This document shows positions 3,992-29,395 of a DNA stretch of 64,000 bases, piece by piece (positions within the stretch are counted from its first letter, which is position 1; each line of letters starts with the position of its first letter). Position numbers and translations under genes: made by a program. The DNA comes from Sulfolobus islandicus Y.N.15.51. GTDB taxonomy: Archaea > Thermoproteota > Thermoprotei_A > Sulfolobales > Sulfolobaceae. The notes under the pieces are model-generated. The model had not been told where the DNA came from and ran no database searches. It saw only the letters and a program-made list of their open reading frames with translations. Where the stretch lies: the NCBI RefSeq assembly GCF_000022485.1, contig NC_012623.1:2258501-2322500 (forward strand), in the 5' to 3' direction.

Positions 3992-4552
3992 CTAAACCTT
4001 CATCCAAAAAACCTCATAGTCTCCAGTGAATCTATCCAAATGAAGACCACCAATCTGAGTTTTATATTCATTTATAGCCCTAATCTTGACCTCTCTATAC
4101 TTTCTAATATCAAACCTAACCTCTCTCCAATTAGCTTGCATAGAACCCCATATTAAGTAAAAGTAAGCCTTTGGATATAACTTCTCCATCACTTTACCTA
4201 TTTTAGCGTGATCTGGATGACTATCGAAGGGTATCGGAGAAAGGACTACATCTTTATCATGTAAAAACTCTACTAACGCTTTTTCAACTTCCTTTTCAAT
4301 AACCTTAGAGTCCTCGAAACTCAAGAATGTAATCTCATCTATACCTAAAATCTTACTAGCCCTTAATGCCTCTTGTCTCCTAATCTCAACCAACTCCATA
4401 CTTCCTTTTAATTTCTCGTCTGGAGAACCGTATCTTCCGTCAGTTACTACAACGACACTTACCTTATAACCCCTTTCTTTAAAAATCTGAACAACCCCAC
4501 CACAACACAAAGTCTCATCATCTGGATGGGGTGCAACGATCAAAACTTGCAT
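3992..4552 (-). CDS. PIG-L/LmbE-type zinc deacetylase
   Basis: The Met at 4552 (MQVLIVAPHPDDETL) is the preferred start. The longer frame from 4570 overlaps the upstream gene by 14 bases and adds only MRRDNP. The A-x-HPDDE motif at the N-terminus and FDSHPDH near residue 115 are the two zinc/catalytic motifs of the family, which removes acetyl groups from N-acetylglucosamine-type sugars. About 186 residues is normal. It directly follows a GT4 glycosyltransferase on the same strand, so the pair probably acts on the same N-acetyl-sugar conjugate in glycan or glycolipid synthesis. The substrate is not deducible. Confidence 0.85.
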   Translation of the reverse strand: MQVLIVAPHPDDETLCCGGVVQIFKERGYKVSVVVVTDGRYGSPDEKLKGSMELVEIRRQEALRASKILGIDEITFLSFEDSKVIEKEVEKALVEFLHDKDVVLSPIPFDSHPDHAKIGKVMEKLYPKAYFYLIWGSMQANWREVRFDIRKYREVKIRAINEYKTQIGGLHLDRFTGDYEVFWMKV

Positions 4553-4556
4553 GGGA

Positions 4557-5702
4557 TTATCTCTTCGCAAAGGCTTTTATATCTTCCAATTCTGCTTCAG
4601 CAACCTTATCCCAAGAGGAATATTCCTCTGGAATTGGTACTACTTCTTCGCTCTTGAAATTTGATATTAAATCAGCCAAACCCTTCACGTCATCCTCCCT
4701 TGCCAAATGAACTCCTTTAACGTTTCCATATATTTCCTTCAGGGCTAAAGTATCATAGGCAAATACTGGAGTTCCAAGTGCTAAAGACTCGAGTGTAACA
4801 AGGGAGAAACTGTCGTAATGTGATGGGTAAACTGTAAACATAGCCTTTGCTACAGTATTGTAAAGTTCCTCTTTTTCCTTAAAGCCCACATATTCAACGT
4901 TTACGTCAAGTCTCTTAATTAAGGAAAGGAAATCATCCTTATCTCTCTCATCAACGAATTGACCAATAACATAGAGCTTAACGTCTCTCCTTAATTTTTT
5001 CCATATCAATGGAATTTCAAAAAGTCCCTTTTCCGGCATGAGTCTTGTAAAGTACACAGCGTAATCTTCCTTATCCCTTTCTCTCCTAAACTTCAGTAAA
5101 TCCTCATCAAAGGCGTTGCCAGGATTCGTAACCCTATAGCTTAAGAGCTTATCTAAACTTGAATTTATTAAGGGAACCTTGCTCACAGAAATTGCGAAGT
5201 TCAAGTCACCTCTCTCTATCAATTCCTTCCACTTTACTTCTTCCCTCTTTGATTCTTCCATTGCTTCCTTAAACTTTTTAACCGCTCTACCAGTTATTCC
5301 CCTAAATTTTATTTTGAAAAGTGTTGTCATATCTCGATAAAATGGTTCCAATTGTAGTTGAACCCCTATAGGTGCTGAAGTTATTCTTCTAGCGAGCCTA
5401 ACGTTTTCAGAGGAATTACTATAAACGACTGCAATATCATATCTTTTCGTTTTAAGTCCATTCAAGAATTCCTCAACGCCACTACTCTTTTCTAATAGTT
5501 CAAGAATGTAATCTGGAGTGGAATTTAAGCTCTCTAGTAGGGTGATTAAATCTTTCCTACATGAGTAAAGCCTAACGTTTCGTAAAGAGGGGATTATATC
5601 CACGTTAATATTCCTTGATAATCTCTTCATGATTTCAAGGTTCCTCTTATATCCACCTGTCTTCTCGTTAAGTCCAAAGTCAACAACCGCCAAAACGTTC
5701 AT
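4557..5702 (-). CDS. GT4-family glycosyltransferase
   Basis: 381 residues with a GT-B layout. The N-terminus MNVLAVVDFGLNEKTGGYKR has the Gly-rich acceptor-side loop. The C-terminal half carries YFTRLMPEKGL (typical start of the donor domain, near residue 217) and FTVYPSHYDSFSLVTLESLA near residues 291-310, the E-x7-E-like nucleotide-sugar site of family 4. There is no signal peptide, so it is cytosolic or membrane-associated. Its stop abuts the start of the PIG-L deacetylase, which indicates an operon. Donor and acceptor are unknown. Confidence 0.85.
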   Translation of the reverse strand: MNVLAVVDFGLNEKTGGYKRNLEIMKRLSRNINVDIIPSLRNVRLYSCRKDLITLLESLNSTPDYILELLEKSSGVEEFLNGLKTKRYDIAVVYSNSSENVRLARRITSAPIGVQLQLEPFYRDMTTLFKIKFRGITGRAVKKFKEAMEESKREEVKWKELIERGDLNFAISVSKVPLINSSLDKLLSYRVTNPGNAFDEDLLKFRRERDKEDYAVYFTRLMPEKGLFEIPLIWKKLRRDVKLYVIGQFVDERDKDDFLSLIKRLDVNVEYVGFKEKEELYNTVAKAMFTVYPSHYDSFSLVTLESLALGTPVFAYDTLALKEIYGNVKGVHLAREDDVKGLADLISNFKSEEVVPIPEEYSSWDKVAEAELEDIKAFAKR

Positions 5703-10869: not shown

Positions 10870-11847
10870 TCAATAAAGCCAACATGCCACGTTATGACCT
10901 GGAGAAATTTCCTTTAGCTCCGGTTCTTGTTCCTTGCACTTAGACATCGCAAATGGACATCTTGGGTAGAATACGCATCCCCTCTCCGGCCTAACTATGT
11001 CAACCTTAATTTTTATTTCCTTCATTTTGTCCCTTAGTGAAGGATCTATTCTAGGATATACCTCAATTAGCCCTTGTGTATACGGATGTAATGGGTTTTT
11101 AATAATCTCATTTGAACTTCCTAACTCTACTACCTTTCCTAAATATAACACTGCAATTCTATCAGATATTATTTTAGCTATTGGTAACTCGTGTGTTATA
11201 AACATAAATGAAAAACCTTTACTTTCTCTAGCATCTTTTATTATCTTCAAGATCTCTCCCTTTAATGAAGCATCTAACATTGTAGTAGGTTCGTCTGCAA
11301 CAATGTATTTAGGGTTCACAACTATAGCTCTAGCTATACTTAGTCTCTGTCTTTGTCCACCAGATAACTGATATACCCTATTTTCCAATAGTTCTAGTGG
11401 AAGATCAACTAACCTCATTGCCTCCTCTATTTTTCTATCTATATCAATCTCTTTTTTGTACTTTAATGGCATCGCTAAAACATCATAAACTCTCATTATA
11501 GGATCTATAGATGAATAAGGATCTTGATATATCATTTGAACGTATTTGCTAATATCTTTCAACTTTGCCTTATTTACGTTAATTTCCCTTTTATCAACTC
11601 TAATATAAATATTGCCAGCCGTAGGTTTTTGGAGACCTATTGTCACTCTACCTAACGTAGTTTTACCAGAACCGCTTTCACCTACGACCCCCATAACTTC
11701 CTTTTCTTTTATACTTAACGTTACATTATCCAGCGCTTTAACTATATACTTCTTACTAAATATTCCACTCTTAGTGAAATACACTTTTAGGTTTTCTACT
11801 TTAACTATATAGTCACTAATAGAGCCAACATGCAACCTCATCACCAT
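10870..11847 (-). CDS. Opp/Dpp-type ABC transporter ATPase (OppF-like)
   Basis: 325 residues. GESGSGKTTL (Walker A), [17 protein letters not shown] (signature) and YIVADEPTTMLD (Walker B) are intact, followed by FITHELPIAK and the Opp/Dpp C-terminal tail with CVFYPRCPFAMSKC. It energises uptake by the permease pair just upstream. Its start overlaps the end of the OppD-like ATPase by about 30 bases, which implies translational coupling. In Sulfolobus, Opp-type systems also carry cellobiose and maltose-type sugars, so peptide or oligosaccharide is equally possible. Confidence 0.9.
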   Translation of the reverse strand: MVMRLHVGSISDYIVKVENLKVYFTKSGIFSKKYIVKALDNVTLSIKEKEVMGVVGESGSGKTTLGRVTIGLQKPTAGNIYIRVDKREINVNKAKLKDISKYVQMIYQDPYSSIDPIMRVYDVLAMPLKYKKEIDIDRKIEEAMRLVDLPLELLENRVYQLSGGQRQRLSIARAIVVNPKYIVADEPTTMLDASLKGEILKIIKDARESKGFSFMFITHELPIAKIISDRIAVLYLGKVVELGSSNEIIKNPLHPYTQGLIEVYPRIDPSLRDKMKEIKIKVDIVRPERGCVFYPRCPFAMSKCKEQEPELKEISPGHNVACWLY

Positions 11848-12766
11848 CTGAGAATGCTTTCATTTTAGGTTCTTCCTTAAAGCAAATATCCCTAGCGAAC
11901 GGACATCGAGTATTGAATCTACAACCTACTGGTGGATTTGAGAGGTCTGGCATGGATCCCGGAATCCCCTTTATTATATCTTTATTTAATGTGGCAATTG
12001 ATTCAACAAGTAGTGAAGTATAAGGATGTCTAGGTTTTTTGAATATAACTTCTGATGGCCCACTTTCCATAACTTTACCCGCGTATAGCATATAATCCCT
12101 ATCCGAAATCTCTGAAAGTAAGGCGAGATCATGAGTTATGAAAATTATGGATAAGTTTAACTCTTTCCTTAATTTTTTCAATAGGTTGAGAATATGTTCT
12201 TGAACCATCACATCTAAAGCCGTTGTAGGTTCGTCCGCTATTAGAATCTCCGGATTTAAGGCTAGGGCCATTGCAATGAAAGCCCTTTGTTTTTGACCTC
12301 CAGAAAGTTCATGGGGGTACTTTTCGGCCAATTGTGGATCCATGTTAACCATTTTGAATAACTCCTCAACTCTCTTATCATAATCTCCAGTCCAACCATG
12401 AATACGTAAAACCTCAATTATTTGATCCCTTATCTTAAAAACAGGGGTGAACCCTGACATAGAGCCTTGGAATACCATTGCTATTTTCTTCCATCTATAA
12501 TTTTTTCTAAATGTCTCTTCGTCCAGTTTTAGTATATTTTCACCTTTAAATAGTATCTCTCCACCCTCAATTTTTCCCGGAAAAGGTACAAGTCTCATTA
12601 TGGCATAGCCTATCGTACTCTTTCCAGATCCGCTTTCTCCAGCGAGTCCAATAATTTCTCCCTTATCCAAATACAAGTTAACATCGTCAACAGTTTTTAC
12701 AATACCCCTCTTCGTGTAAAAGTAAACCTTTAAATTTCTTACTTCTAATAACATCTTACCTCTCAC
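11816..12766 (-). CDS. Opp/Dpp-type ABC transporter ATPase (OppD-like)
   Basis: 316 residues with Walker A GESGSGKSTIG, signature HELSGGQKQRAFIAMAL, Walker B ILIADEPTTALD, switch His in FITHDLALL, and the C-terminal oligopeptide-transporter domain with CRFNTRCPFARDIC. It forms the nucleotide-binding heterodimer with the next gene. Its start overlaps the end of the permease gene by 11 bases. All key catalytic residues are present. Confidence 0.9.
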   Translation of the reverse strand: MRGKMLLEVRNLKVYFYTKRGIVKTVDDVNLYLDKGEIIGLAGESGSGKSTIGYAIMRLVPFPGKIEGGEILFKGENILKLDEETFRKNYRWKKIAMVFQGSMSGFTPVFKIRDQIIEVLRIHGWTGDYDKRVEELFKMVNMDPQLAEKYPHELSGGQKQRAFIAMALALNPEILIADEPTTALDVMVQEHILNLLKKLRKELNLSIIFITHDLALLSEISDRDYMLYAGKVMESGPSEVIFKKPRHPYTSLLVESIATLNKDIIKGIPGSMPDLSNPPVGCRFNTRCPFARDICFKEEPKMKAFSDGDEVACWLY

Positions 12767-14108
12767 CTAATGTAACTCTCTCTATTGCGAAACCTATTAG
12801 CACGAAAGGTATTGCGACGATAACAATCATCGCTCCAGGGAACACAACCCACCACCACCATCCGTTAACTTGTGCTTGATAAGTTTCTGCAGCATCTAAA
12901 ATTCCTCCCCAAGTTACTATATTAGCTGGAGCTATTCCTAAAAAGGCTAACGTTTGGGCTAAAAGGATTCCTGCGGGGACACCTAAGGCCATATAAGCTA
13001 CTGTTATTGGTATTAACCTAGGCATAAAGTGTGTAAAGAATACTCTATATGATGGTATTCCAAGTAATTTATCAGCCTCAACAAAACTATTTGACTTTAT
13101 TGATAAAGCCATTGACCTAGCTATTATAGCGTAAAATGGCCAAGACAAGAATGCTATTAGGAGGGCTTCAATTTCCAGATTAGGTTCCGTTACAAATGAG
13201 ACTGCAACTAAAAAGGGAAGAGCTGGCAATGCTAAGAATACTAAGGTAAGCCACTGTATTGCAGAATCCTTGTTCCCACCCAGATAACCAGAAATTCCTC
13301 CAACAAAAATTCCCACGAGTACAGCGACTAGTGAAGTTAATGCACCTATTTCTAACGCATTCGGCAATCCTAAAAGAACCCCTAAATCCAATGGTCTTCC
13401 GAAATAATCAGTTCCCATCAAACCATAGGAATTACCCAATAAGAGCAACCCTGACTTTGTAATGTTCATAGGCGAAGATGACACTATTTCTATCTTAATT
13501 ACATACCTCCCTTGTTCAGTTGTTGTAAAATTGGATTTTGGAGAGTTAAATAGTGCTGATGATAATACAGTGCTATTAACTATATTTGGTGTCTTTCCAG
13601 TAATCGAAGATATATAATTCAAAATATCACCTCTAATACTTGTAAGGTCAAATGGCACATTAAATACTCCATTTGGAACGTTTACCTGTAAGGTATAACC
13701 GTCTGGTTTACTCCAATATATTACTTCCTCAATAGGGGTAATATTGGTTGAGACTATGAAATATACGTTATAGGCCGGTAAGACTTTAGACCAATTGAAT
13801 TGATATGTTATTATTGCTACAAATATATTTTTTGCAGGTGAATATAGGGACATATTTATTGGTGATAACTCCTCCGTTGTGAAATACTTGTTTGGGTAAA
13901 AGATAGATAACCAAGCTGGAGGTACATGTTCCGGATACTGATTCCAAGATGCTGGATTATTCCAAGATGCGTAAACTTTTGCAGGAATAGATATGGCTAT
14001 TCCAGTAAATATAAGTAAAATAATTAAAATTATAAGACCTACCAATCCGATTTTACTAGACAAAAAATCTCTAAGATAAGAGGAAAAACCTACATTTCTT
14101 TTACTCAA
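12756..14108 (-). CDS. Opp/Dpp-type permease (OppC-like) with a large external insertion
   Basis: 450 residues, longer than bacterial OppC (about 300). After the first transmembrane helix (about 20-42) there are roughly 180 hydrophilic, sequon-containing residues predicted to lie outside. Then comes MGTDYFGRPLDLGVLLG, the usual entry to the transport domain, five hydrophobic helices, and the EAA coupling loop in LGIPSYRVFFTHFMPRLIPI. The insertion may contact the anchored binding protein. It is in an operon with OppB-like at 14111, two bases apart. Confidence 0.88.
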   Translation of the reverse strand: MSKRNVGFSSYLRDFLSSKIGLVGLIILIILLIFTGIAISIPAKVYASWNNPASWNQYPEHVPPAWLSIFYPNKYFTTEELSPINMSLYSPAKNIFVAIITYQFNWSKVLPAYNVYFIVSTNITPIEEVIYWSKPDGYTLQVNVPNGVFNVPFDLTSIRGDILNYISSITGKTPNIVNSTVLSSALFNSPKSNFTTTEQGRYVIKIEIVSSSPMNITKSGLLLLGNSYGLMGTDYFGRPLDLGVLLGLPNALEIGALTSLVAVLVGIFVGGISGYLGGNKDSAIQWLTLVFLALPALPFLVAVSFVTEPNLEIEALLIAFLSWPFYAIIARSMALSIKSNSFVEADKLLGIPSYRVFFTHFMPRLIPITVAYMALGVPAGILLAQTLAFLGIAPANIVTWGGILDAAETYQAQVNGWWWWVVFPGAMIVIVAIPFVLIGFAIERVTLGER

Positions 14109-14110
14109 TC

Positions 14111-15157
14111 TTATTCACCTACCTTTATTCTAGGATCCAATAATCCGTAAACTAATTCCCCTAAAAACAATCCAAGTAGCAACACAATTGTCAAAACGTA
14201 GGTTATCCCTAATATCACTGGTAAATCATTTAAGGTTATGGCAACATAAGTTAACAAACCTACCCCAGGCCATTCGAAAACAACCTCTGTGGTTAAACTA
14301 CCTCCTAATGATCCAGCTAGTGCTAAAATAGCTTGTGTGGCAATTGATGGGGAGGCAGAGCGTAAGACATGTCTATACAATATTCTGGAATCTGGTAATC
14401 CTCTAGCCTTCGCTGTAATCACAAAATCTTCCTTCATAATTGATGTAACTAAACTTCTAACAATGTATGCGAATCCTCCGACGTTTACAATAAATATAGT
14501 AATCAATGGTAATGACATATGATATAAAACACTTATTCCATAATCAAATGGATTCTTTGGCGGTGGAACTGAGGTCATTCCTCCAGGTGGGAAAACTTTA
14601 ACTGCATATGCTAAAGCAGCAATTAGGACAAAACCTAACCACCAAGTGGGAATACTAGAGTGTATTACAGCTATTATTGCGATTACCTTCTCCCAGAATT
14701 TAGATTTTGCAGAGAGTAAGCCAATTATAGTCCCAGCTACTATGAATACTATAGTAGCAGTAGTAAATAAGAGAATAGTATTGGGCAAATAATAAGCTAT
14801 AATTGAACTAACCTCTCTAGAACCAGAAGGAGCTTGTAAAAAGTAAGCTGTACCGAAATCGAAACGCATCAAATTATACATTTGGATAAAATATTTATCG
14901 ATAATTGGTTGGTTAAGCCCGTAAGCCGCAATTAAAGATTCCCTATACTTCTCTACTGCAATCTGAATTTGAGTAGAGTTTAGATTATGGGCATTTTTAA
15001 ACAAAGTTTGAGAGAACTGTGCAACTTGAAAATTGATACTCTTAGCTATAACCTCCTGCAATATGGGAAAAGTAAAAATATAAAGAATGGTTAAAGTGGC
15101 TAGAAGAACTGAAAAATAAATAAGTACCTTTTTTATCATATATGTGGTAAAACCCAT
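14111..15157 (-). CDS. Opp/Dpp-type permease (OppB-like)
   Basis: 348 residues. An N-terminal helix precedes an external loop, then five further membrane helices with the ABC coupling loop ITAKARGLPDSRILYRHVL and the conserved P-S-I...EVVFEWPGVGLL region. This is the family organisation of OppB/DppB. It lies between the binding protein and OppC-like genes on the same strand with very short gaps. Confidence 0.9.
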   Translation of the reverse strand: MGFTTYMIKKVLIYFSVLLATLTILYIFTFPILQEVIAKSINFQVAQFSQTLFKNAHNLNSTQIQIAVEKYRESLIAAYGLNQPIIDKYFIQMYNLMRFDFGTAYFLQAPSGSREVSSIIAYYLPNTILLFTTATIVFIVAGTIIGLLSAKSKFWEKVIAIIAVIHSSIPTWWLGFVLIAALAYAVKVFPPGGMTSVPPPKNPFDYGISVLYHMSLPLITIFIVNVGGFAYIVRSLVTSIMKEDFVITAKARGLPDSRILYRHVLRSASPSIATQAILALAGSLGGSLTTEVVFEWPGVGLLTYVAITLNDLPVILGITYVLTIVLLLGLFLGELVYGLLDPRIKVGE

Positions 15158-15174
15158 TATTACTCACTCTTTTA

Positions 15175-17859
15175 TTATCTCCTTCTGAATAATAATACCG
15201 CTAAAGCTATTATTATAATTATTAGGACTACTATTACAGCAATATAGCCAATATTCGAGGCACTAGATACTACTGTACTGACTATAGTACTCACTACAGT
15301 GCTGATTACAGTACTAACTGATGTAGTCGTAGTTGTACTTGTTGTAGTTGTTGTACTTGTTGTAGTGCTCGTAGTAGTTGTTATGGATGGTAATACTACA
15401 AGAGTATATGTTACTGGATTTATTAATATTGAAGTATTACTGTACGCTGATACCGATAGTAGGTATGATCCAGGGGATAATGAAGATGGAACAGTAAAGG
15501 TAAATTGTCCACTAGAATTGGTCATTAATTGATATCCTGATATTATAGAGCCATTTGGATACAGTAATTCTATATTAACTACGGCATTTGGAGTAGGTAT
15601 TGCTGTGGTACTTCCAGCAGGAGTTCCCATTACAGTACCAGTTAAGGTTTGACCAAGTGAAACTGTTGATGGGATGCTTAGTGAAACTGAATACATAGTC
15701 GGTAAGGCTAACGCATTAGATGGAGGAACCAAATGGAAGTAGGGATTCCTTATCAGTTTTGCGTAGGGTGGAGACGCACTCGGATTCCACGCTACCAAGA
15801 TATATGGACCATCACCTATTAATCCATTTCCATAGGTCTTCATGAAGTTAATTGCCGCTTCATATCCAGCTTTTGCTTCTTGTGGAGTTACTAGAGTTAT
15901 ACCGCTTAAGTTCTCTACTATCTGTAAACTCTTAGGTATATATCCAGTAGCTGAGGCATTCTGTAACGCTGAAGTTATATATCCAATATCAGTTGGACTA
16001 ACTAGATTCAGCCAATCAATTCCTTTGGACTGAGCTGCTGCCGTAGACCACGCAGCTTTACCTTGTGCAACAACATCTTTCATACCAACATACATTTGCC
16101 ATGGGAAATAACCTCCGCCAGCTAACGCGTAACCTAGTGGATTGAAAGATCCAAATAAGCTAACTACAGCCTCAGTAGGATCGAAGAACCAATCATTGCC
16201 CCATATTTCTATAGCACTGGAGTTAATTATCTTAAATCCTTTAATAGTCTGTAGTGCTGGAGCATATACTGATGATGCAGTTGAGTCATAAATTGGATTA
16301 CTAGAGTTTAAGGACATCTCGGATGCAACAATATATTCATATATTATGTCAGCAAGAGTTATATTTTGACCATCAGCCCATTTATCGTTATTGAACAGTG
16401 GGGCTAAGTTATATATTACAGCCATTTGCGCAGTAGTATTAGGAGATACCTTAGTTATTTGCTGCGTAGTTGGATTCCACCACAATGCATTTGAAGGTAC
16501 TGATACTACAGCATGTGGAGTTATATTAACTATCTTGTAAGTATAAATGAAAGGTACTGGGTATCCCGAACCTGGTGCTGTTAAAGAGGACGGAGTGAAT
16601 AAAGCGTTTCCTATTTCATCTGTATAGGAATCAGTGAAACCAGCACCGGGATTAGCCGAACCTTGACTTAAGTATCTAACACCTATTGTAACATTAGGAT
16701 AGCTTCCATTCGTTATAGAATAATATGTCTGGAAGCTTAGTAGTGTACTTTGGGCAAAACTTGGATACACACCATTAATGTTAGATAGTGCGTATATTGG
16801 AGTTAGACTCATTCCTAGTCCTATTCTTACTGACATGTTAATACCTAACTCTACAATCTTATTATATATTTGGTAATATTCTTGGGCGCTAGTGAACTGA
16901 CTTTGGGCTATTATCAATGATAGATTGTCAAGCTCATTAGCCTCTTTGAGTAATAATGAGGATTCATACCTAGTATCGTTATACGTACCCATACTTAAGC
17001 CGTAATATGAAGAAAATGGATCAGAAGCCCCTAAAGTACTGTAAAGTCCTAGTGCTAAACCAGAGTCATAATACCCATAAGTCCCACCCCAAGCTTCAAT
17101 TAATATATTCCACGTAGTATTTGCAGGATCGCTACCGTATACTACAGAAATTTCCTTTTGTAAATTCCCTTGAATTTGTTGGACAGTAAAACCTAACTTC
17201 TGTAGTTGAGTTATAAAGTATTGGGCATATTCTCTCCTTACAGTGGCATCAGTTCTGACAAATACGTAAACTGTTATGGGTTTCCCATTATAATACCATT
17301 GTCCATTAATATATTTAGCACCATGAGCAGTTAGAACTTTATAAATGGTTTCATTTGCATAAGTGAAATTATAGTGAACATTAGCGTACTTAGATAGTGT
17401 TTGTTGGAGATGAATCACATCAGGTTCTCCAGCATATAGAGATATAGTTGGTATACCATAACCGTGTAGTATACTATCTACAAAATAGGTTCTATTTACT
17501 ATATAGTTCAGTGCGAATCTAACTTCTTGGAATTGGAATGGGTTAAAACCAAAAGTAGTATTTAATGGATTTACCAGAATGTCATAATAAGTACTCGGTA
17601 GTAAGTAAGCTTTAGCCCCTGGAGGCAAACTTGTATATTCTGATGGAGGTACAGCGTAAGCATAAAAGGCTATTTGCCCATGCTCAAAAGCCAATATACC
17701 GTTGGCGTCATTACCGTTATATGAAATTATTGTTATTGCTGTAGAAGCAGGCGAGGAACTTGCAGATTGTGCTATGGCAAAAATGGGACTGATAGCAGTT
17801 GCAACTAGTATTAAGAGCGAAATTATTTTTTTGTCTTTTATACTTAACACACTATACAC
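15175..17859 (-). CDS. Opp-type solute-binding protein, membrane anchored
   Basis: 894 residues from a GTG at 17859. A signal-like hydrophobic segment (about 10-30) precedes a long SBP_bac_5-type domain (for example WADGQNITLADIIYEYIVAS, the usual hinge-side motif, near 490). A carboxypeptidase-regulatory/Ig-like region (about 730-820) follows, then a Thr/Ser stalk, one transmembrane helix and a FRRR tail. This stalk-and-anchor arrangement is typical of Sulfolobus sugar and peptide receptors, which are glycosylated at the cell surface. It is the first gene of the operon running to 10675 and probably defines the substrate, which cannot be read from sequence alone. Confidence 0.88.
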   Translation of the reverse strand: MYSVLSIKDKKIISLLILVATAISPIFAIAQSASSSPASTAITIISYNGNDANGILAFEHGQIAFYAYAVPPSEYTSLPPGAKAYLLPSTYYDILVNPLNTTFGFNPFQFQEVRFALNYIVNRTYFVDSILHGYGIPTISLYAGEPDVIHLQQTLSKYANVHYNFTYANETIYKVLTAHGAKYINGQWYYNGKPITVYVFVRTDATVRREYAQYFITQLQKLGFTVQQIQGNLQKEISVVYGSDPANTTWNILIEAWGGTYGYYDSGLALGLYSTLGASDPFSSYYGLSMGTYNDTRYESSLLLKEANELDNLSLIIAQSQFTSAQEYYQIYNKIVELGINMSVRIGLGMSLTPIYALSNINGVYPSFAQSTLLSFQTYYSITNGSYPNVTIGVRYLSQGSANPGAGFTDSYTDEIGNALFTPSSLTAPGSGYPVPFIYTYKIVNITPHAVVSVPSNALWWNPTTQQITKVSPNTTAQMAVIYNLAPLFNNDKWADGQNITLADIIYEYIVASEMSLNSSNPIYDSTASSVYAPALQTIKGFKIINSSAIEIWGNDWFFDPTEAVVSLFGSFNPLGYALAGGGYFPWQMYVGMKDVVAQGKAAWSTAAAQSKGIDWLNLVSPTDIGYITSALQNASATGYIPKSLQIVENLSGITLVTPQEAKAGYEAAINFMKTYGNGLIGDGPYILVAWNPSASPPYAKLIRNPYFHLVPPSNALALPTMYSVSLSIPSTVSLGQTLTGTVMGTPAGSTTAIPTPNAVVNIELLYPNGSIISGYQLMTNSSGQFTFTVPSSLSPGSYLLSVSAYSNTSILINPVTYTLVVLPSITTTTSTTTSTTTTTSTTTTTSVSTVISTVVSTIVSTVVSSASNIGYIAVIVVLIIIIIALAVLLFRRR

Positions 17860-17919: not shown

Positions 17920-18927
17920 TTATTTACTAATTAACATGATCTCACTCGACATTTTGACAATTTCCATATTAATATCATCTATTTCCCCTACTAACCTGTA
18001 GGGACCAATTCCCAAATCCCTAGTGAATATCCATACTTCTCTGCCCCTCACTGCCACCGCATTTTTAAATAATTTAGTATAACACGTTTCACCTTCATAT
18101 ATATTATCCCTAGTATAACATACTATGGCGAACTCCCTATAATTTTCCACTGCAAACTTTTTATCTAATCTTTTGCCTACGCTTTCATCATATACTTTAA
18201 TTCTTATCTTCGTAATATCAGACTTGAAAACTTCCGATACTTGCCTTAAACTTTCATAATCTGGAATGGGGTCTCCTATTAAAACTCTGTCGACGAATTT
18301 GAACAAGTAATTGGCAGAATCGAATGGTTCTACATACCTTAAAACCTCTAATGTGGTTCTGAGATTAAACTTTGGATTAGAGATAAACGCACCGATCTCT
18401 ATACCTCTTTCCTTAAATATCCTATTTTTCTCTATAAAGATCTCTTTAGATATCCCACTATACAAGACTGGGTAATAGTTGTGGCAAGCCTTAATCCTTT
18501 CAAGATTTGCATTTCTGGCAATAAAGTCTACCTCTTCCTCGCTTATCTCAAATGGGTTTAGCTCAACAGTCATTTGCTTACTCATTTCAACGATTTCCTC
18601 TTTACTAAATCCGTAGTCAGCCCTAACTCCCTTAAAGCCAATTTCCATAAACATTGATAAATTCCTAGGAGATGCGTTCAACTCTTTAAGAATTTGCGGG
18701 TTTATATCCACAAAGGCATAATAGTCCAATTTGTTAGCCTCTTTTAAGATCTCCTTGGCAACACTAAGCGCCTCATTTACCGGAGTCCTCCAATGGGTTC
18801 CGGGACCAATTCCCATGAATATTTCGGAAAATCCCAGATCTCTAACATTTTTCAATAAACTAATTTGCTCATCTTTTATCTCCTTCCAACCTGGGAAGAT
18901 TGAGAAACCGATTCTTCTCTTAGTCAT
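17920..18927 (-). CDS. DUF871/MupG-family protein
   Basis: 335 residues. The N-terminal half looks like the TIM-barrel of the DUF871 family ([10 protein letters not shown]..., [10 protein letters not shown], then [43 protein letters not shown]). The C-terminal half matches its small beta domain ([20 protein letters not shown]). The characterised bacterial relative MupG cleaves MurNAc-6-phosphate-containing sugars from murein recycling. Archaea have no murein, so here the substrate must be another phospho-sugar or ether. It is divergently transcribed from the AlaX operon with only 35 bases between. Confidence 0.75.
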
Positions 18928-18962: not shown

Positions 18963-19415
18963 ATGGATCAAGTTGAGATTCGCACTCACACCGCCTTACA
19001 TGTGGTCAAAGGAGCTGTGAGGAAAGTTTTGGGTGCCAAATGGACTGCAAGCACTTACGTTAATAGCAATCATGGGAGATTAACGGTAAAGTTTGAGAGG
19101 AAACCTAGCGATCAGGAAATGGATAAGGTCTTTGAATTGGCTAACGAGAAGGTTAGAAAAAACCTTCCAATAATAATTGAGGTTTTACCTAGGGAAGAAG
19201 CTGAAAGGAAATATGGAGATGAGATCTACGATCTCTTTCTTATTTCAGCTGAGGTTAGGGAGTTAAGCATTGTGGTAATACCAGATTGGAGTATTAATGC
19301 TTGCAATAAGCAACATACTAAGTTTACCTCTGAGATTGGAGAGATCATCAAGGACTATTGGAGATATAGGAATAGTAAACAGTTACTCGAGATTTCATTT
19401 GACATAAAGTGTTAA
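18963..19415 (+). CDS. alaX: AlaX-type alanyl-tRNA editing protein
   Basis: 150 residues. The zinc-binding editing motifs are intact: HTALH at residues 8-12 and CNKQH near 118-122. AlaX proteins are free-standing relatives of the AlaRS editing domain and hydrolyse Ser-tRNA(Ala) or Gly-tRNA(Ala). The compact length fits the short AlaX form. Its stop overlaps the start of the next gene by about 7 bases, so it is the first gene of a three-gene operon whose other members look like Cas3 relatives; a link between them is not obvious. Confidence 0.88.
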
Positions 19416-20803
19416 GAATGATAGGAAAAGTCCTTGAGCTTTTAAACTGTAAGGAGACTGAGAGGGAAATTAACAGAAGAAAATTTTCAATATGCGATGA
19501 TGTTAACTTCATCTTGAATTTACCCATCGGTTATTTAAAAGATGTAATTTCACCACTTGAAAACTATTTATCAAAACATATGACTAATAACTTTTCAAGA
19601 TTAACTCGCGTAGTTCCTAACGATTATGAGGATACACAACTACATTTCAGTAAATTCTTTTTAAACCTTTACAGTAGCGCAATTTCTGAAATCCCAAGAT
19701 TTAACATCCTTACCTCACTAGTCATCTTAGATGAGTATCGAATGATGCCAGATAAGGCTTTAATTGCTGCAGCTGACGAATTGGCGAGGAATGGCATTAA
19801 CGCAATTTTCTCTACTTCAACACCTTCGGTATTCTTTGAGGAGGAGATAGTAAGTAGATTTAGAAATAGAAGAGTGGTATCTATTTCAATAGTTAATGAA
19901 TATGGGCAAGCGGTTGAGGGTAGGGATTGCGTGAAGAAAGGTGAGGGATATTATCAGTGTAGGGGTAGTTACGAAGTGATTGAATTAATTGAGGATTTTG
20001 ACATTAGGGATTTAGATTATGAGATCATTAAAGGTGAAGAGGTATTTAAGGTAAAGGAACCATTTACGCTTTTCGTAAATTCTTGGGAAAAGGCGTTGAG
20101 ATTATACAGAAAGTTAAGGGAGGAAAGAAATACTGAGGTATGTTTACTTAATAGTAGTGATGAATGCAAAGTGACTATTACACCTAAAATTATGCCTACT
20201 AGGTTTAACGTGGTGAGCGAAATTTCATCATTACCAACTATTGTAGCTAGAAGTGGAATTATTAACGATAAGGATAAGATCTACGTCTGGATTGATAGGG
20301 ATAATTACGATACAGTGACTGAAAGTACTCTTAATCTACTTTCAAATATCAAAGTATGCTTAAAACATCCCTTTGGCTGTAATGGAAAGATGGGATATGC
20401 TAACAAGACGGTCTTAAAGCCTAACATTGATGAAAGGCTTATAAAAAGGCTAAGTGAAATAAGCCACTTAATGGATAGAAGGGAGTTCGAGAAGGTGACA
20501 GAACTCTTCAGTGATTTCGTAACAGTCGATCTATTTACTGATAAAGAGAAAATAACTACAGTACCTCCCGAGTTTGTATACGAGAACAAAAAGAAGATAT
20601 TATACTACGGAAATAGCTGCGTTTACACGTACTTTACTGATGGAGAAAAATGCTCTAAGATAGTTTATAATTGGTTAGAAGGCGGAGGTGTTTCATGGCT
20701 TAAGAGGAATTTAGCAAGGGCTTATAAGAATTACGTTGAGGAAGAAGGAAAAAAGGAGGTATTTTTGGGATTAAAGGCTAAAGACGTGGGAGAATGGATT
20801 TAG
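19409..20803 (+). CDS. Degenerate Cas3'-like superfamily 2 helicase
   Basis: 464 residues (GTG at 19409, or ATG at 19418). The succession of segments follows archaeal Cas3 helicases but with key residues lost. LPIGYLKDV (38-46) stands where Walker A 'PTGxGKT' belongs. [14 protein letters not shown] (62-75) resembles the FSRxIxVLPxRS segment. [10 protein letters not shown] (105-114) is a DExH-like box with R for H. FSTSTP (134-139) replaces [16 protein letters not shown] (222-233) equals the VNTVxxAxxLY motif. [11 protein letters not shown] (273-283) resembles 'PxxxQRxGR'. ATP hydrolysis therefore looks impossible. It overlaps both neighbours. Alternatives are an unrelated Sulfolobales-specific protein or a pseudo-helicase kept for a structural role. 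The Cas3 call is an inference from motif order. Confidence 0.55.
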
Positions 20804-21291: not shown

Positions 21292-21300
21292 TTTTTATAA
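21292..21300 (+). promoter_or_regulatory. TATA box of the glmS-like gene
   Basis: TTTTTATAA lies 20-28 bases upstream of the ATG at 21320, so this gene probably has its own leaderless promoter despite the short gap after the Cas3''-like gene. Confidence 0.5.
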
Positions 21301-21319
21301 CCAAAACTAAAATTTAAGT

Positions 21320-23074
21320 ATGGGAGGAATTTTCGCTTTCGTATGCAAGGATTCCATTGATGTTTCAATTATTAACAAGGGTTTAAAGAAGTTGATTTAT
21401 AGGGGATATGATAGCGCTGGTATTGCTTACCTTGAAGACGATAGCTTAGTAATAAAGAAAATTTTAGGTAATATCTCAAAGAATGAGATAAGCGTTAGTG
21501 ACAAGGCAAGAGTTGCAATAGGTCACACTAGATATGCGAGTAGGGGTTGGCCAACTTTGGAAAACGCTCACCCACTGACTGATTGTAATGGGAAGATAGC
21601 AGTTGTAATGGACGGTATTCTTGACGATTACGAAAAAATTAGGGAAGATCTGATTGCGAAGGGACATAAATTCGTCTCTACAACTGACGCTGAGGTGATT
21701 CCCCACTTACTTGAGAATTCAACAAACTATCTAAACTCATCATTAAACGTTATGAAAAGGGTAAAGGGCATTTACTCTCTGGTTTTTGTAACCATAGACA
21801 TTGATAAAATATTCGCAATTAACTCTGGCCAACCCTTGATGATAGGTATCACACAAGAGTGTAAATACGTTTCTAGCGATTTACCCTCTTTGAGCGGTTT
21901 TGCTGAGAATGCGATAATAATGCCAGAAAATACTGTGGCAGTAATCTCTTGGAATGATGTGCAAGTGTATAATATTGAAGGTAATGAGGTAAAACCGGAA
22001 ATTAAGAGAGTTAAATACAAGGAGGAGATAGCTGAAAAGGGTGGATTTCCACACTTCATGTTAAAGGAGATATACGATATCCCACAGGCCTTGATAAACT
22101 CATTTAACTCTTTAATGGAGAAGTACCTTTCCTTAGCCTCGATGATACTATATGGTGCTAAAAACGTTTATGTGATAGGTAATGGAACCAGTCTTCATGC
22201 TGGATTAATCTCCACTTACTATTTCTCAGAAATCGGTCTAAATGTTAACGTTGTAAGTGCAGCGGAATTTCCATATTATGCCTTGGAAAACGTAACTACT
22301 GGTTCAGTAATTATTGCCATAAGTCAAAGTGGAGAGACCAGTGATGTTATAAGGAGTGTTAAAATGGCCAAGCAGAGAGGAGCTGTGATATTAGGCATAA
22401 CCAACTCCGTAGGTTCAAGATTGGCATTGGAGTCTAACGTATACCTACCAATAACCGCTGGACCAGAGATGGCTGTGCCTGCAACCAAAACTTTTACCTC
22501 GACTATTGTGGTACTTAAGGTACTTTCACTATATACTGGACTTCACTCCGGGAAAAATAGTAGGAGTGACATTAATTCATTAAAAACCGAGATCGAGGAA
22601 TTGGCTAAACAGCTTGTTACGAGTTTACCGGAAATGGAGAAAGAGGCAGAGAAATTGTCTATTAAACTGGATAAGGAAAGCTTATACGTTTCAAGTAGTG
22701 GGATAAATTATCCCGTAGCATTGGAAGGAGCTTTGAAATTTAAGGAAGCTTCAATGACTCACGCAGAGGGTATGCAGTTGGGAGAGCTCTTGCATGGTCC
22801 AATCGTTCTCACTAATAAAGGTTATCCCGTGATTTTAATAAAACCTGCTGAGGCTGAGGATTTGTACAATAAGGTTGTTAAGTCAATAAGGGAAAGGAGG
22901 GATGTGATTATAACCATTTCTGAAGATGGTGATATGAAGAGTGTAAAGACAATTAGGGATTTGACTCCTATAAGCAATGTAATACCGTTACAGTTATTAG
23001 CTTATAAGCTGGGAGTTAAGAGGGGTTTCCCAATAGACACTCCTCCGGGACTAGTAAAGGCTGTCATAGTTTAA
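21320..23074 (+). CDS. GlmS-like isomerase without the glutaminase nucleophile
   Basis: 584 residues with the GlmS architecture: an N-terminal Ntn glutaminase-like domain (about 1-210) and two SIS sugar-isomerase domains (about 270-580). The protein begins MGGIF where active GlmS begins MCGI, so the catalytic N-terminal Cys is Gly. The oxyanion-hole N-G is D98-G99 (MDGILDDY). Other glutamine-site residues ([21 protein letters not shown]) persist. The SIS sites look intact ([40 protein letters not shown] and the C-terminal [12 protein letters not shown]). It may make glucosamine-6-phosphate with free ammonia, run in the deaminase direction, or use a partner glutaminase. Confidence 0.88.
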
Positions 23075-26811: not shown

Positions 26812-27114
26812 ATGCCACATTTCCTGATTCATAACAAAAACGACAACGTTGGAGTTGCCATAACTGACATTAAAGCTGGGGAAGAGGTGGAAGGAGTATA
26901 CATTGAGGACATGGCAAAAGGACCTAAGATTAATGCAATTAACAACATACCCTTAGGGCATAAGATAGCCTTAAGTAATCTCAAGCAAGGTGATACAGTG
27001 ATAAAGTACGGTAGGCCAATAGGATCTGCTATAAAGGAGATTAAGATTGGAGAACACGTACACGTACATAATATAAAATCTAGCAGGTGGGGAAAATGGA
27101 GAAAAAGCCAGTAA
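26812..27114 (+). CDS. UxaA-family dehydratase, small (SAF domain) subunit
   Basis: 100 residues. The segments AITDIKAGEEVEG and IPLGHKIALSNLKQGDTVIKYGRPIGSAIKEI are those of the SAF domain at the N-terminus of altronate/galactarate dehydratases. HVHVHNIKSSR closes the subunit. In many bacteria this domain is fused to the large part; here it is a separate gene overlapping the large-subunit gene by 28 bases. The same split occurs in sulfolactate sulfo-lyase SuyA/SuyB. The complex probably eliminates water (or sulfite) from a sugar acid or hydroxy acid. Confidence 0.85.
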   Translation: MPHFLIHNKNDNVGVAITDIKAGEEVEGVYIEDMAKGPKINAINNIPLGHKIALSNLKQGDTVIKYGRPIGSAIKEIKIGEHVHVHNIKSSRWGKWRKSQ

Positions 27115-28262
27115 TAAAGGGTTACATTAGGGAAAACGGTAGCGTTGGAGTTAGAAATTACGTAACCGTAATACCGGTAGATGACCTATCTAATTCCGCT
27201 GCAATAGGAGTATCGAAACTAATTAGGGGTACTGTTGCAATTCCTCATCCATATGGTAGGTTACAATTTGGTAAAGACTTAGATTTACTCTTCCACGTTC
27301 TATCTGGGACTGGTGCAAACCCAAACGTAGCTGGAGCAATAGTTATTGGGATTGAGGAGAACTGGGCAAATAAGGTAGCTAATAAAATAGCTGAGACTGG
27401 AAAACCAGTCGAGGTTTTTCCTATTGAGGGAAATGGCGATTTGAGAGTAATTGAAAAGGCGAGTAGAAAGGCAAAGGAGATGGTTCAAGAGGCTAGTGAG
27501 AAACAGAGGACAGAAGTTGATCTATCCTCTTTAGTTATGAGTATTAAGTGTGGGGAGAGCGATACTACGTCTGGTTTGGCATCAAATCCAGCAACTGGGT
27601 ATGCTGTTGATAAGCTGATTGATTACGGTGCAACAGTATTATTCGGAGAAACGTCAGAGTTAACTGGTGCTGAGGACATAGTTGCAAGTAGGATACCGGA
27701 TCCAGTGTTAAGAGAGAAGTTCATGAAGATTTACAAAGAATACGTGGATTTCATTGAAAGTCAAGGAGTCGATTTATTGGGTTCTCAACCAACTGAGGGG
27801 AACATTAAGGGAGGATTGTCGACAATAGAGGAAAAAGCTTTAGGAAATATACAAAAGTTGGGTACTAAACCTATAACTTGCGTGCTAGATTATTTAGACC
27901 CATTAGAAAAGAATTCGTCTAGACTATGTTTCGTTAATACCTCATCTGCTGCAGCAGAGGCAGTTACATTGTTTGCAGCTAAGGGTTCTGTACTTCACTT
28001 GTTCACGACTGGTCAAGGGAATGTTGTTGGGCATCCAATAATTCCCGTTGTTAAGATTTCAGCAAATCCAAAGACTGTTGCGACAATGAGTGAGCATATT
28101 GACGTTGACGTTTCTGACTTACTTCAACTAAAGGTTAGTTTAAGGGAAGCTGGGGAGAGGATATTCAACTATACGATTAGGGTTGCAAATGGCAGGTTAA
28201 CTTCAGCTGAGCTATTACAACACGATGAGTTCTCACCAATAAAGCTTTACATAAGTGCTTGA
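27087..28262 (+). CDS. UxaA/GarD-family dehydratase, large subunit
   Basis: 391 residues. GYIRENGSVGVRNYVTVIPV at the start and IKCGESDTTSGLASNPATGYAVD (about 149-171) are conserved in the altronate/galactarate dehydratase catalytic part. FGETSELTGAE, PTEGNIKGGLSTIEEKALG and the C-terminal TTGQGNVVGHPIIPVVKI segment are also conserved. It pairs with the SAF-domain gene before it and is followed without a gap by an enolase-superfamily gene. The substrate could be an aldonate, aldarate or sulfolactate. Confidence 0.88.
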   Translation: MGKMEKKPVIKGYIRENGSVGVRNYVTVIPVDDLSNSAAIGVSKLIRGTVAIPHPYGRLQFGKDLDLLFHVLSGTGANPNVAGAIVIGIEENWANKVANKIAETGKPVEVFPIEGNGDLRVIEKASRKAKEMVQEASEKQRTEVDLSSLVMSIKCGESDTTSGLASNPATGYAVDKLIDYGATVLFGETSELTGAEDIVASRIPDPVLREKFMKIYKEYVDFIESQGVDLLGSQPTEGNIKGGLSTIEEKALGNIQKLGTKPITCVLDYLDPLEKNSSRLCFVNTSSAAAEAVTLFAAKGSVLHLFTTGQGNVVGHPIIPVVKISANPKTVATMSEHIDVDVSDLLQLKVSLREAGERIFNYTIRVANGRLTSAELLQHDEFSPIKLYISA

Positions 28263-29395
28263 GGATGAAGGTAAAACCTTTTTCTTTATCTATACCCTTT
28301 AATACTAATCCTCCCTCTGATTGGAAGGATACGTGGGATGTGCAACTCTACGTTAAAGTTGAAGATGAAGAAGATTACGGTTGGGGAGAAACATTAGTAG
28401 CGGGGAGCGGAATTATAAACTCTTACCTTTCCATTATAAATGATATAGTAATACCAATTTTGTCTAAAGTAGAATTAACCGAACCAACAGACGTTAGGAC
28501 TATTTTAGAGAAGATTCTTTTTAGTGCTGGAAATTGCGGAGTTGTTTCCGGGGCCATAAGCGCTGTGGAAATGGCATTATGGGGTTTAAAAGCTAGGAAA
28601 AGTAATGTGGAATTGACTAGACTAATTGGTGGTAAAGTTAGAGATTCAGTAAAAGTATACGCTAGTTTTCCCAGATTTGGTAAAATTGATTATATTATTA
28701 TTGCAACTAGAAAATCTATAGAGAGAGGTTTTGATTTAGTTAAGCTTCATCAATCTCCTTCAAGTGTTATAGATGCGGTTAAAGCTATAAGAGGGAATTA
28801 TAAGGAAGTTAAAATAGCGATTGACCTTAATTCTCCTTTTGATAATCTAGATAAGGCTAAGGAGTTCGTGGACAAGGTTCATAAGTATGAGATTGAATGG
28901 GTAGAGGAACCATTATGGCCTCCCAATGATTACGATTTACTTTCCAAGCTTACTGAATTTTCTCCCATACCTATTGCAGCCGGAGAGAATGAATACTCCT
29001 TATACGGTTTTAAGAAAATGATCGAAAGTGGTATAACGTATCTACAACCAGATATTGCTAAGATTGGAGGGGTAAGTAAATTTCTAGAAATATTAGATTT
29101 GGCATCAAAACATAAGGTGAGAGTATTGCCTCACGATAGGCCTGACGCTTCTCCACTGTCCTTGATATACACGTTAAATCTCGGACTAGTAAAGAGCCAA
29201 ATAGAAATGGTGGAGTATACAATTGCGGACTTTCCCAACGACCTATTTTACTCCTTGCCAAAATTCAAAGATGGCTATATATATCCCTCAGAGAACCCTG
29301 AAGTTATAGAGGAAAACATAGAAAAATATGGTTATAAAAATAGGCTCAGAATATTACATTTCAGTGATCTAGAAAGTAAACTAACAAGGAAATAA
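28259..29395 (+). CDS. Enolase-superfamily enzyme (mandelate racemase/sugar-acid dehydratase like)
   Basis: 378 residues. The capping domain (GWGETLVAG near 40-48) precedes the barrel. FDLVKLHQSPS holds the K-x-H catalytic pair, AIDLNS the first metal Asp, WVEEPLWPP the second ligand Glu, AAGENEYSLYGF the third Glu, and VLPHDRPDASPL the catalytic His on the far side. All acid/base and metal residues appear present. The start overlaps the UxaA stop by four bases, so the two act in one pathway. Dehydration or racemisation of a sugar acid is likely; I cannot name the substrate. Confidence 0.85.
   Translation: MRMKVKPFSLSIPFNTNPPSDWKDTWDVQLYVKVEDEEDYGWGETLVAGSGIINSYLSIINDIVIPILSKVELTEPTDVRTILEKILFSAGNCGVVSGAISAVEMALWGLKARKSNVELTRLIGGKVRDSVKVYASFPRFGKIDYIIIATRKSIERGFDLVKLHQSPSSVIDAVKAIRGNYKEVKIAIDLNSPFDNLDKAKEFVDKVHKYEIEWVEEPLWPPNDYDLLSKLTEFSPIPIAAGENEYSLYGFKKMIESGITYLQPDIAKIGGVSKFLEILDLASKHKVRVLPHDRPDASPLSLIYTLNLGLVKSQIEMVEYTIADFPNDLFYSLPKFKDGYIYPSENPEVIEENIEKYGYKNRLRILHFSDLESKLTRK

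Follow-up and report, generated by a model that had tools for sequence, protein, structure and literature searches.

A glutaminase-dead GlmS paralogue of Thermoproteota as a probable glucosamine-6-phosphate deaminase

Relation to described systems

Glutamine:fructose-6-phosphate amidotransferase (GlmS/GFAT; TIGR01135) is the described enzyme whose fold, isomerase active site, and complete order of domains recur in pGlmS, a 584-aa protein of Sulfolobus islandicus Y.N.15.51 encoded at 21320..23074 (+) of the window, the 64,000-nucleotide stretch analysed here. pGlmS departs from GlmS/GFAT by the replacements Cys1 to Gly, Asn98 to Asp, Trp74 to Tyr, and Ala400 to Pro, by loss of the C-terminal Glu608, and by its catabolic gene setting. 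A nucleophile-free GlmS has been engineered in E. coli (C1A; PDB 3ooj), and both sequence and fold searches match it to pGlmS; that protein is a laboratory mutant, whereas in pGlmS the nucleophile was lost naturally and long ago, and N98D and A400P go with the loss. No description of the pGlmS family was found in the open-access literature.

Archaeal GlmD and bacterial NagB-II are SIS-only glucosamine-6-phosphate (GlcN-6-P) deaminases (PDB 2cb0, 2dec, 8eol) that have a two-SIS architecture and a pathway slot in common with pGlmS. The SIS-only homologues fetched for comparison carry the same catalytic Glu, His, and Lys as pGlmS, K503L and A602V are common to both, and Arg599, Asn600, and Glu608 are changed in both. 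Unlike GlmD and NagB-II, pGlmS retains a whole dead glutaminase domain (GATase_6 present), and the fetched proteins form a clade separate from it. pGlmS falls far short of the curated SIS-deaminase cut-offs, with 69.7 of 580 bits for NF041128 and 132.2 of 430 bits for NF046059; the association with GlcNAc-catabolic genes that characterizes SIS-only deaminases is found for pGlmS as well.

Bacterial GlcNAc and chitobiose catabolism (nagA-nagB; the chb operon of L. paracasei with the GH170 enzyme ChbE, PMC12791066) has NagA, a MupG/GH170-family 6-phosphoglycosidase candidate, and a GlcN-6-P deaminase step in common with Sulfolobaceae. Sulfolobaceae differ by the proposed GlmS-derived deaminase and by ABC transporters instead of a PTS.

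A GlmS paralogue without the glutaminase nucleophile

Pfam models assign to pGlmS a glutamine amidotransferase domain (GATase_6) followed by two SIS domains. The N-terminal glutaminase-fold (Ntn/GATase_6) domain, approximately residues 1-236 (21320..22027, +), is kept without its nucleophile, and the SIS domains of the phosphosugar half (22040..23071, +) keep all catalytic residues checked. The predicted structure (mean pLDDT 86.9, pTM 0.65, from a 14-sequence alignment) matches human GFAT and E. coli GlmS full-length in a fold search. The domain assignments and this full-length match bear out the first-pass annotation, which held that the glutaminase fold and both SIS domains persist. Against the NCBIfam glmS model TIGR01135, whose score is blind to the presence of the nucleophile, pGlmS scores 473.8 bits, above the curated equivalog cut-off of 418. 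Because pipelines that use this model name the proteins passing it synthases, pGlmS is probably misannotated widely as a biosynthetic enzyme.

The protein begins MGGIFAF, and MGGIF is invariant among Sulfolobaceae orthologues. Alignment to E. coli GlmS (mature numbering) places a Gly codon (21323..21325, +) at the Ntn nucleophile Cys1 and the Asp codon GAC (21611..21613, +) at the oxyanion residue Asn98, so that Asn98-Gly99 reads Asp-Gly; the initial reading of both substitutions was correct, and Gly and Asp occupy these positions in 51/51 clade members. An upstream Cys-containing N-terminus, considered at first as a sign of a misassigned start, is absent. The start is not misassigned, since an in-frame stop (TAA, 21308-21310) lies four codons upstream of the ATG with no Cys between. 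A TATA-like box about 24 bp 5' of the ATG (21292..21299, +), conserved in three relatives, suggests that pGlmS has its own promoter and a leaderless transcript.

Further changes in the glutaminase domain are Trp74 to Tyr, Thr76 to Ser, His77 to Arg, and His97 to Met, while Arg26, Arg73, His86, Gly99, and Asp123 are unchanged; Arg73 and Asp123 among these belong to the amino-acid pocket. The phosphosugar site keeps Ser303, Ser347, Gln348, Ser349, Thr352, Lys485, Glu488, His504, and Lys603. C1G, W74Y, T76S, H77R, N98D, and the loss of Glu608 are found in 13/13 Sulfolobaceae orthologues. All 51 sequences with C1G and N98D have Pro at 400 and lack Glu608 where that column is covered, whereas the 29 Cys-containing sequences compared have Cys1, Asn98, and Ala400. 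Catalytic SIS residues, including Lys603, Glu488, and His504, are kept across the pGlmS clade, and glutaminase-domain positions conserved there at 95% or more include Arg26, Arg73, Asn84, Asp98, Gly99, Asp123, Glu125, and His129. The residue changes give good support to the earlier prediction that pGlmS should not hydrolyse glutamine.

An ordinary GlmS is encoded elsewhere in the genome (C1:967031-968743; 591 aa), beside a nucleotidyltransferase-like gene. This is the Cys-containing enzyme for which the first-pass annotation had proposed a search; it begins MCGI and retains Asn98, and pGlmS is therefore a paralogue rather than the cell's only synthase. Most other pGlmS-bearing genomes likewise hold a second GlmS-like match. 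The remaining SIS matches in the S. islandicus genome are a 218-aa and a 275-aa protein, and NagB (TIGR00502) has no match anywhere in it. Recycling of MurNAc via MurQ is not supported, as none of the SIS proteins found in this genome looks MurQ-like.

Distribution, phylogeny, and selection

Of 31 Sulfolobaceae genomes, 13, spanning five genera, carry an orthologue of pGlmS (59-97% identity). Both C1G and N98D are present in 51 GlmS-like sequences from Thermoproteota, and this signature extends through the phylum to relatives as distant as approximately 37% identity. Two peptide patterns run across 84,980 GTDB genomes, a scan that sees only fairly close relatives, return 23 loci, all labelled Thermoproteota or their orders.

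In a tree of the SIS half, which excludes the diagnostic glutaminase positions, 37 pGlmS representatives fall on one side of a branch with an SH-aLRT of 99. This single old clade rules out a recent lineage-specific loss, and the family is best explained by a single origin from a GlmS-type synthase. An origin shared with the SIS-only proteins is not seen in this tree, which places them elsewhere, though on a long branch.

Close pGlmS pairs have dN/dS values of approximately 0.09-0.18 in the glutaminase half and 0.03-0.10 in the SIS half, against approximately 0.015-0.05 for the glutaminase half of canonical GlmS pairs. Constraint on the dead domain is thus relaxed relative to working GlmS, yet selection on it is still purifying, and its retention would fit a structural or regulatory role. 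A pseudogene or sequencing error is ruled out by changes conserved in 51 sequences and by dN/dS well below 1. Between the window species and one relative (L016 and L017, the latter from G013), pGlmS shows a synonymous divergence of 0.06 for its glutaminase half and of 0.39 for its SIS half, which suggests recombination within the gene.

Association with amino-sugar catabolism

Within the window, pGlmS lies approximately 2.4 kb from a divergently transcribed gene for a MupG-like (PF19200, GH170-type) 6-phosphoglycosidase candidate (17920..18927, -). Adjoining that gene, in conserved synteny, is an Opp/Dpp-type ABC importer (SBP_bac_5, two permeases, two ATPases; 10870..17859, -), a putative oligosaccharide uptake system; the whole arrangement is mostly kept in the genus. 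The GlcNAc-6-P deacetylase NagA is not adjacent to pGlmS in this genome, being approximately 377 kb away.

NagA is found in 15 of 31 Sulfolobaceae genomes, namely the 13 with pGlmS plus two (G012 and G015) that lack pGlmS and carry a glutaminase-less SIS homologue (Fisher 3e-9 for co-occurrence in the 31 genomes, not corrected for relatedness). MupG_N is present in the same 15 genomes, so that within the family the MupG-like gene and NagA always occur together. In a Thermoproteota sample of 398 genomes, NagA is found in 38/50 with pGlmS versus 25/348 without, counts that are uncorrected for shared ancestry and in which the 50 were chosen by profile score, with residues read for most. Outside Sulfolobaceae, MupG_N occurs in only four of the 398 genomes, all from one distant genus and all (4/4) with NagA and pGlmS, an independent recurrence of the association.

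Proximity is also seen. In about 15 distinct neighbourhoods from several families, NagA lies 15-296 bp from pGlmS, and the partner NagA proteins score over the curated TIGR00221 cut-off. One genome (G027) has pGlmS flanked by NagA (38 bp) and a MupG-like gene (63 bp), and another (G005) has, besides NagA, a NagK-type kinase and a GH116 enzyme within approximately 2 kb. Some neighbourhoods in distant families contain NagA, one of them with a NagK-like kinase, and genes for the PTS components EI, HPr, or EIIB. PTS EI, HPr, sorbose-type EIIB, and SIS_2 proteins lie near pGlmS at four loci of other families (L138, L139, L140, and L147), a hint that archaea may take up amino sugars through a PTS.

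In G015, a SIS-only gene sits directly between NagA and a transporter ATPase; at the matching locus of the S. islandicus genome, NagA, transporter, and GH116-type genes follow a similar order with no SIS gene among them. Either a SIS-only protein encoded in the operon or an unlinked GlmS derivative thus seems to occupy this slot of the pathway.

Twelve of the 50 pGlmS genomes lack NagA, eight of them from a single family (f2) with neutral neighbourhoods where these were read; in such genomes GlcN-6-P must thus come from another source, or pGlmS must have a different role. PIG-L/diacetylchitobiose-type deacetylases fail as substitutes for NagA, 11 of the 12 genomes being without PIG-L as well. 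The window itself encodes a PIG-L deacetylase adjoining a GT4 glycosyltransferase (3992-5702, -), and the closest solved relatives of the deacetylase include diacetylchitobiose deacetylases. The same pair is found near pGlmS and NagA in G027 (L052), and the window pair may belong to amino-sugar metabolism.

Proposed function and alternatives

The first-pass annotation offered ammonia use, GlcN-6-P deamination, and ligand sensing as possible functions. Genomic context strongly favours the second, and pGlmS is probably a catabolic GlcN-6-P deaminase derived from GlmS that completes GlcNAc breakdown where NagB is absent. Its substrate and the direction of its reaction are what we infer, on a background of observed residues, monophyly, selection, gene association, displacement by SIS-only proteins, and absence of NagB. 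Sequence alone does not set the direction, because the kept catalytic residues are common to the synthase and the SIS-only homologues. Loss of Cys1 and Asn98 would remove glutamine hydrolysis, so that the enzyme would lose its drive toward synthesis. GlcN-6-P would then be equilibrated with fructose-6-P and ammonia by the intact SIS half (GlcN-6-P + H2O -> fructose-6-P + NH3), with a net flow to fructose-6-P in cells that NagA supplies.

A full route might begin with import of GlcNAc-containing oligosaccharides and their cleavage by a GH116-type or MupG-like glycosidase, followed by phosphorylation by a broad-specificity hexokinase orthologue, deacetylation by NagA, and deamination by pGlmS. 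The published specificity of S. tokodaii hexokinase reportedly includes GlcNAc. An orthologue is present in the S. islandicus genome (E 1e-100 to 2e2n), and the S. tokodaii protein is described as a broad-specificity enzyme (PMC10465942). In L. paracasei, genetic evidence ties the GH170 family, which includes MupG, to the use of chitobiose, and NagA acts downstream (PMC12791066); by this precedent a phosphorylated chitobiose-type substrate is plausible here.

What the dead domain now does is a more doubtful matter. It is possible, if less than probable, that the former ammonia site and tunnel now let ammonium out or serve as an allosteric site that senses amino acids, making pGlmS a regulated reverse-direction deaminase with its channel reversed. 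This reading rests on the invariant Gly1 and Asp98, the changed Trp74, and the kept Arg73 and Asp123.

Known GlmS enzymes are poor users of exogenous ammonia. This weighs against the idea that pGlmS makes GlcN-6-P from free ammonium as a backup to canonical GlmS when ammonium is high, as do the Cys-containing GlmS in the same genome, the second GlmS-like match in most other pGlmS genomes, the company that pGlmS keeps with catabolic NagA and MupG, and its replacement by a SIS-only, deaminase-like protein in a NagA operon. An ammonia-dependent synthase is accordingly unlikely, even with an intact synthase half, a reaction reversible in principle, and NagA missing from the 12 genomes noted above. 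It is harder still to see pGlmS as a non-catalytic regulatory or partner subunit, acting by binding to canonical GlmS or as a sensor of a sugar phosphate or an amino acid. The kept amino-acid pocket (Arg73 and Asp123) and the persisting purifying selection on the dead domain agree with such a role, yet the isomerase residues, Lys603, Glu488, and His504 among them, are kept clade-wide, the SIS half is more constrained than the dead half, and a stand-alone SIS protein stands in for pGlmS in two genomes. A purely sensory role in particular looks unlikely because every checked catalytic residue of the isomerase site is kept.

The functions of SIS enzymes are diverse, as FrlB and AgaS illustrate. 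This diversity, together with the fact that some pGlmS members have neighbours not tied to GlcNAc, leaves room for a same-fold sugar-phosphate enzyme acting on another substrate, for instance an isomerase, a deglycase, or a deaminase for a different 6-phospho amino sugar such as galactosamine-6-P. Such a reassignment seems about as improbable as the regulatory subunit, given that pGlmS is closest by far to GlmS (TIGR01135, 474 bits) and that its partner deacetylases exceed the curated NagA cut-off.

If pGlmS is indeed a GlcN-6-P deaminase, an enzyme family has reversed its physiological direction by dropping its nitrogen-donor chemistry while retaining the domain. The missing deaminase step of amino-sugar catabolism would then be filled in many Thermoproteota, and the standard glmS annotation would be wrong in dozens of genomes. 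The conserved dead pocket offers a clean natural test of the role of an amidotransferase domain once catalysis is gone.

Neighbouring genes

The first-pass annotation also pointed to two proteins upstream of pGlmS with apparently lost catalytic residues, which is a weak claim. The 464-aa protein at 19409-20803 (+) has weak similarity to a Cas3 helicase core (E 7e-4), with DEYR and STST-like motifs, and appears to lack a Walker A motif. The short AlaX/AlaRS editing-domain-like protein at 18963-19415 (+) has HTALH and CNKQH zinc-type motifs that look intact by eye. The helicase-like protein is conserved at 53-92% in the genus, along with the AlaX-like gene and one for a 163-aa protein that belongs to no known family. 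Any link of pGlmS with these three genes is seen within the genus only; neither upstream gene is linked to it outside the genus in the neighbourhoods read, and the implied connection to neighbouring dead proteins is not supported.

Downstream of pGlmS, a SAF-domain protein and altronate/galactarate dehydratase-like and enolase-superfamily genes (26812-29395, +) are conserved nearby in the genus and probably serve sugar-acid catabolism.
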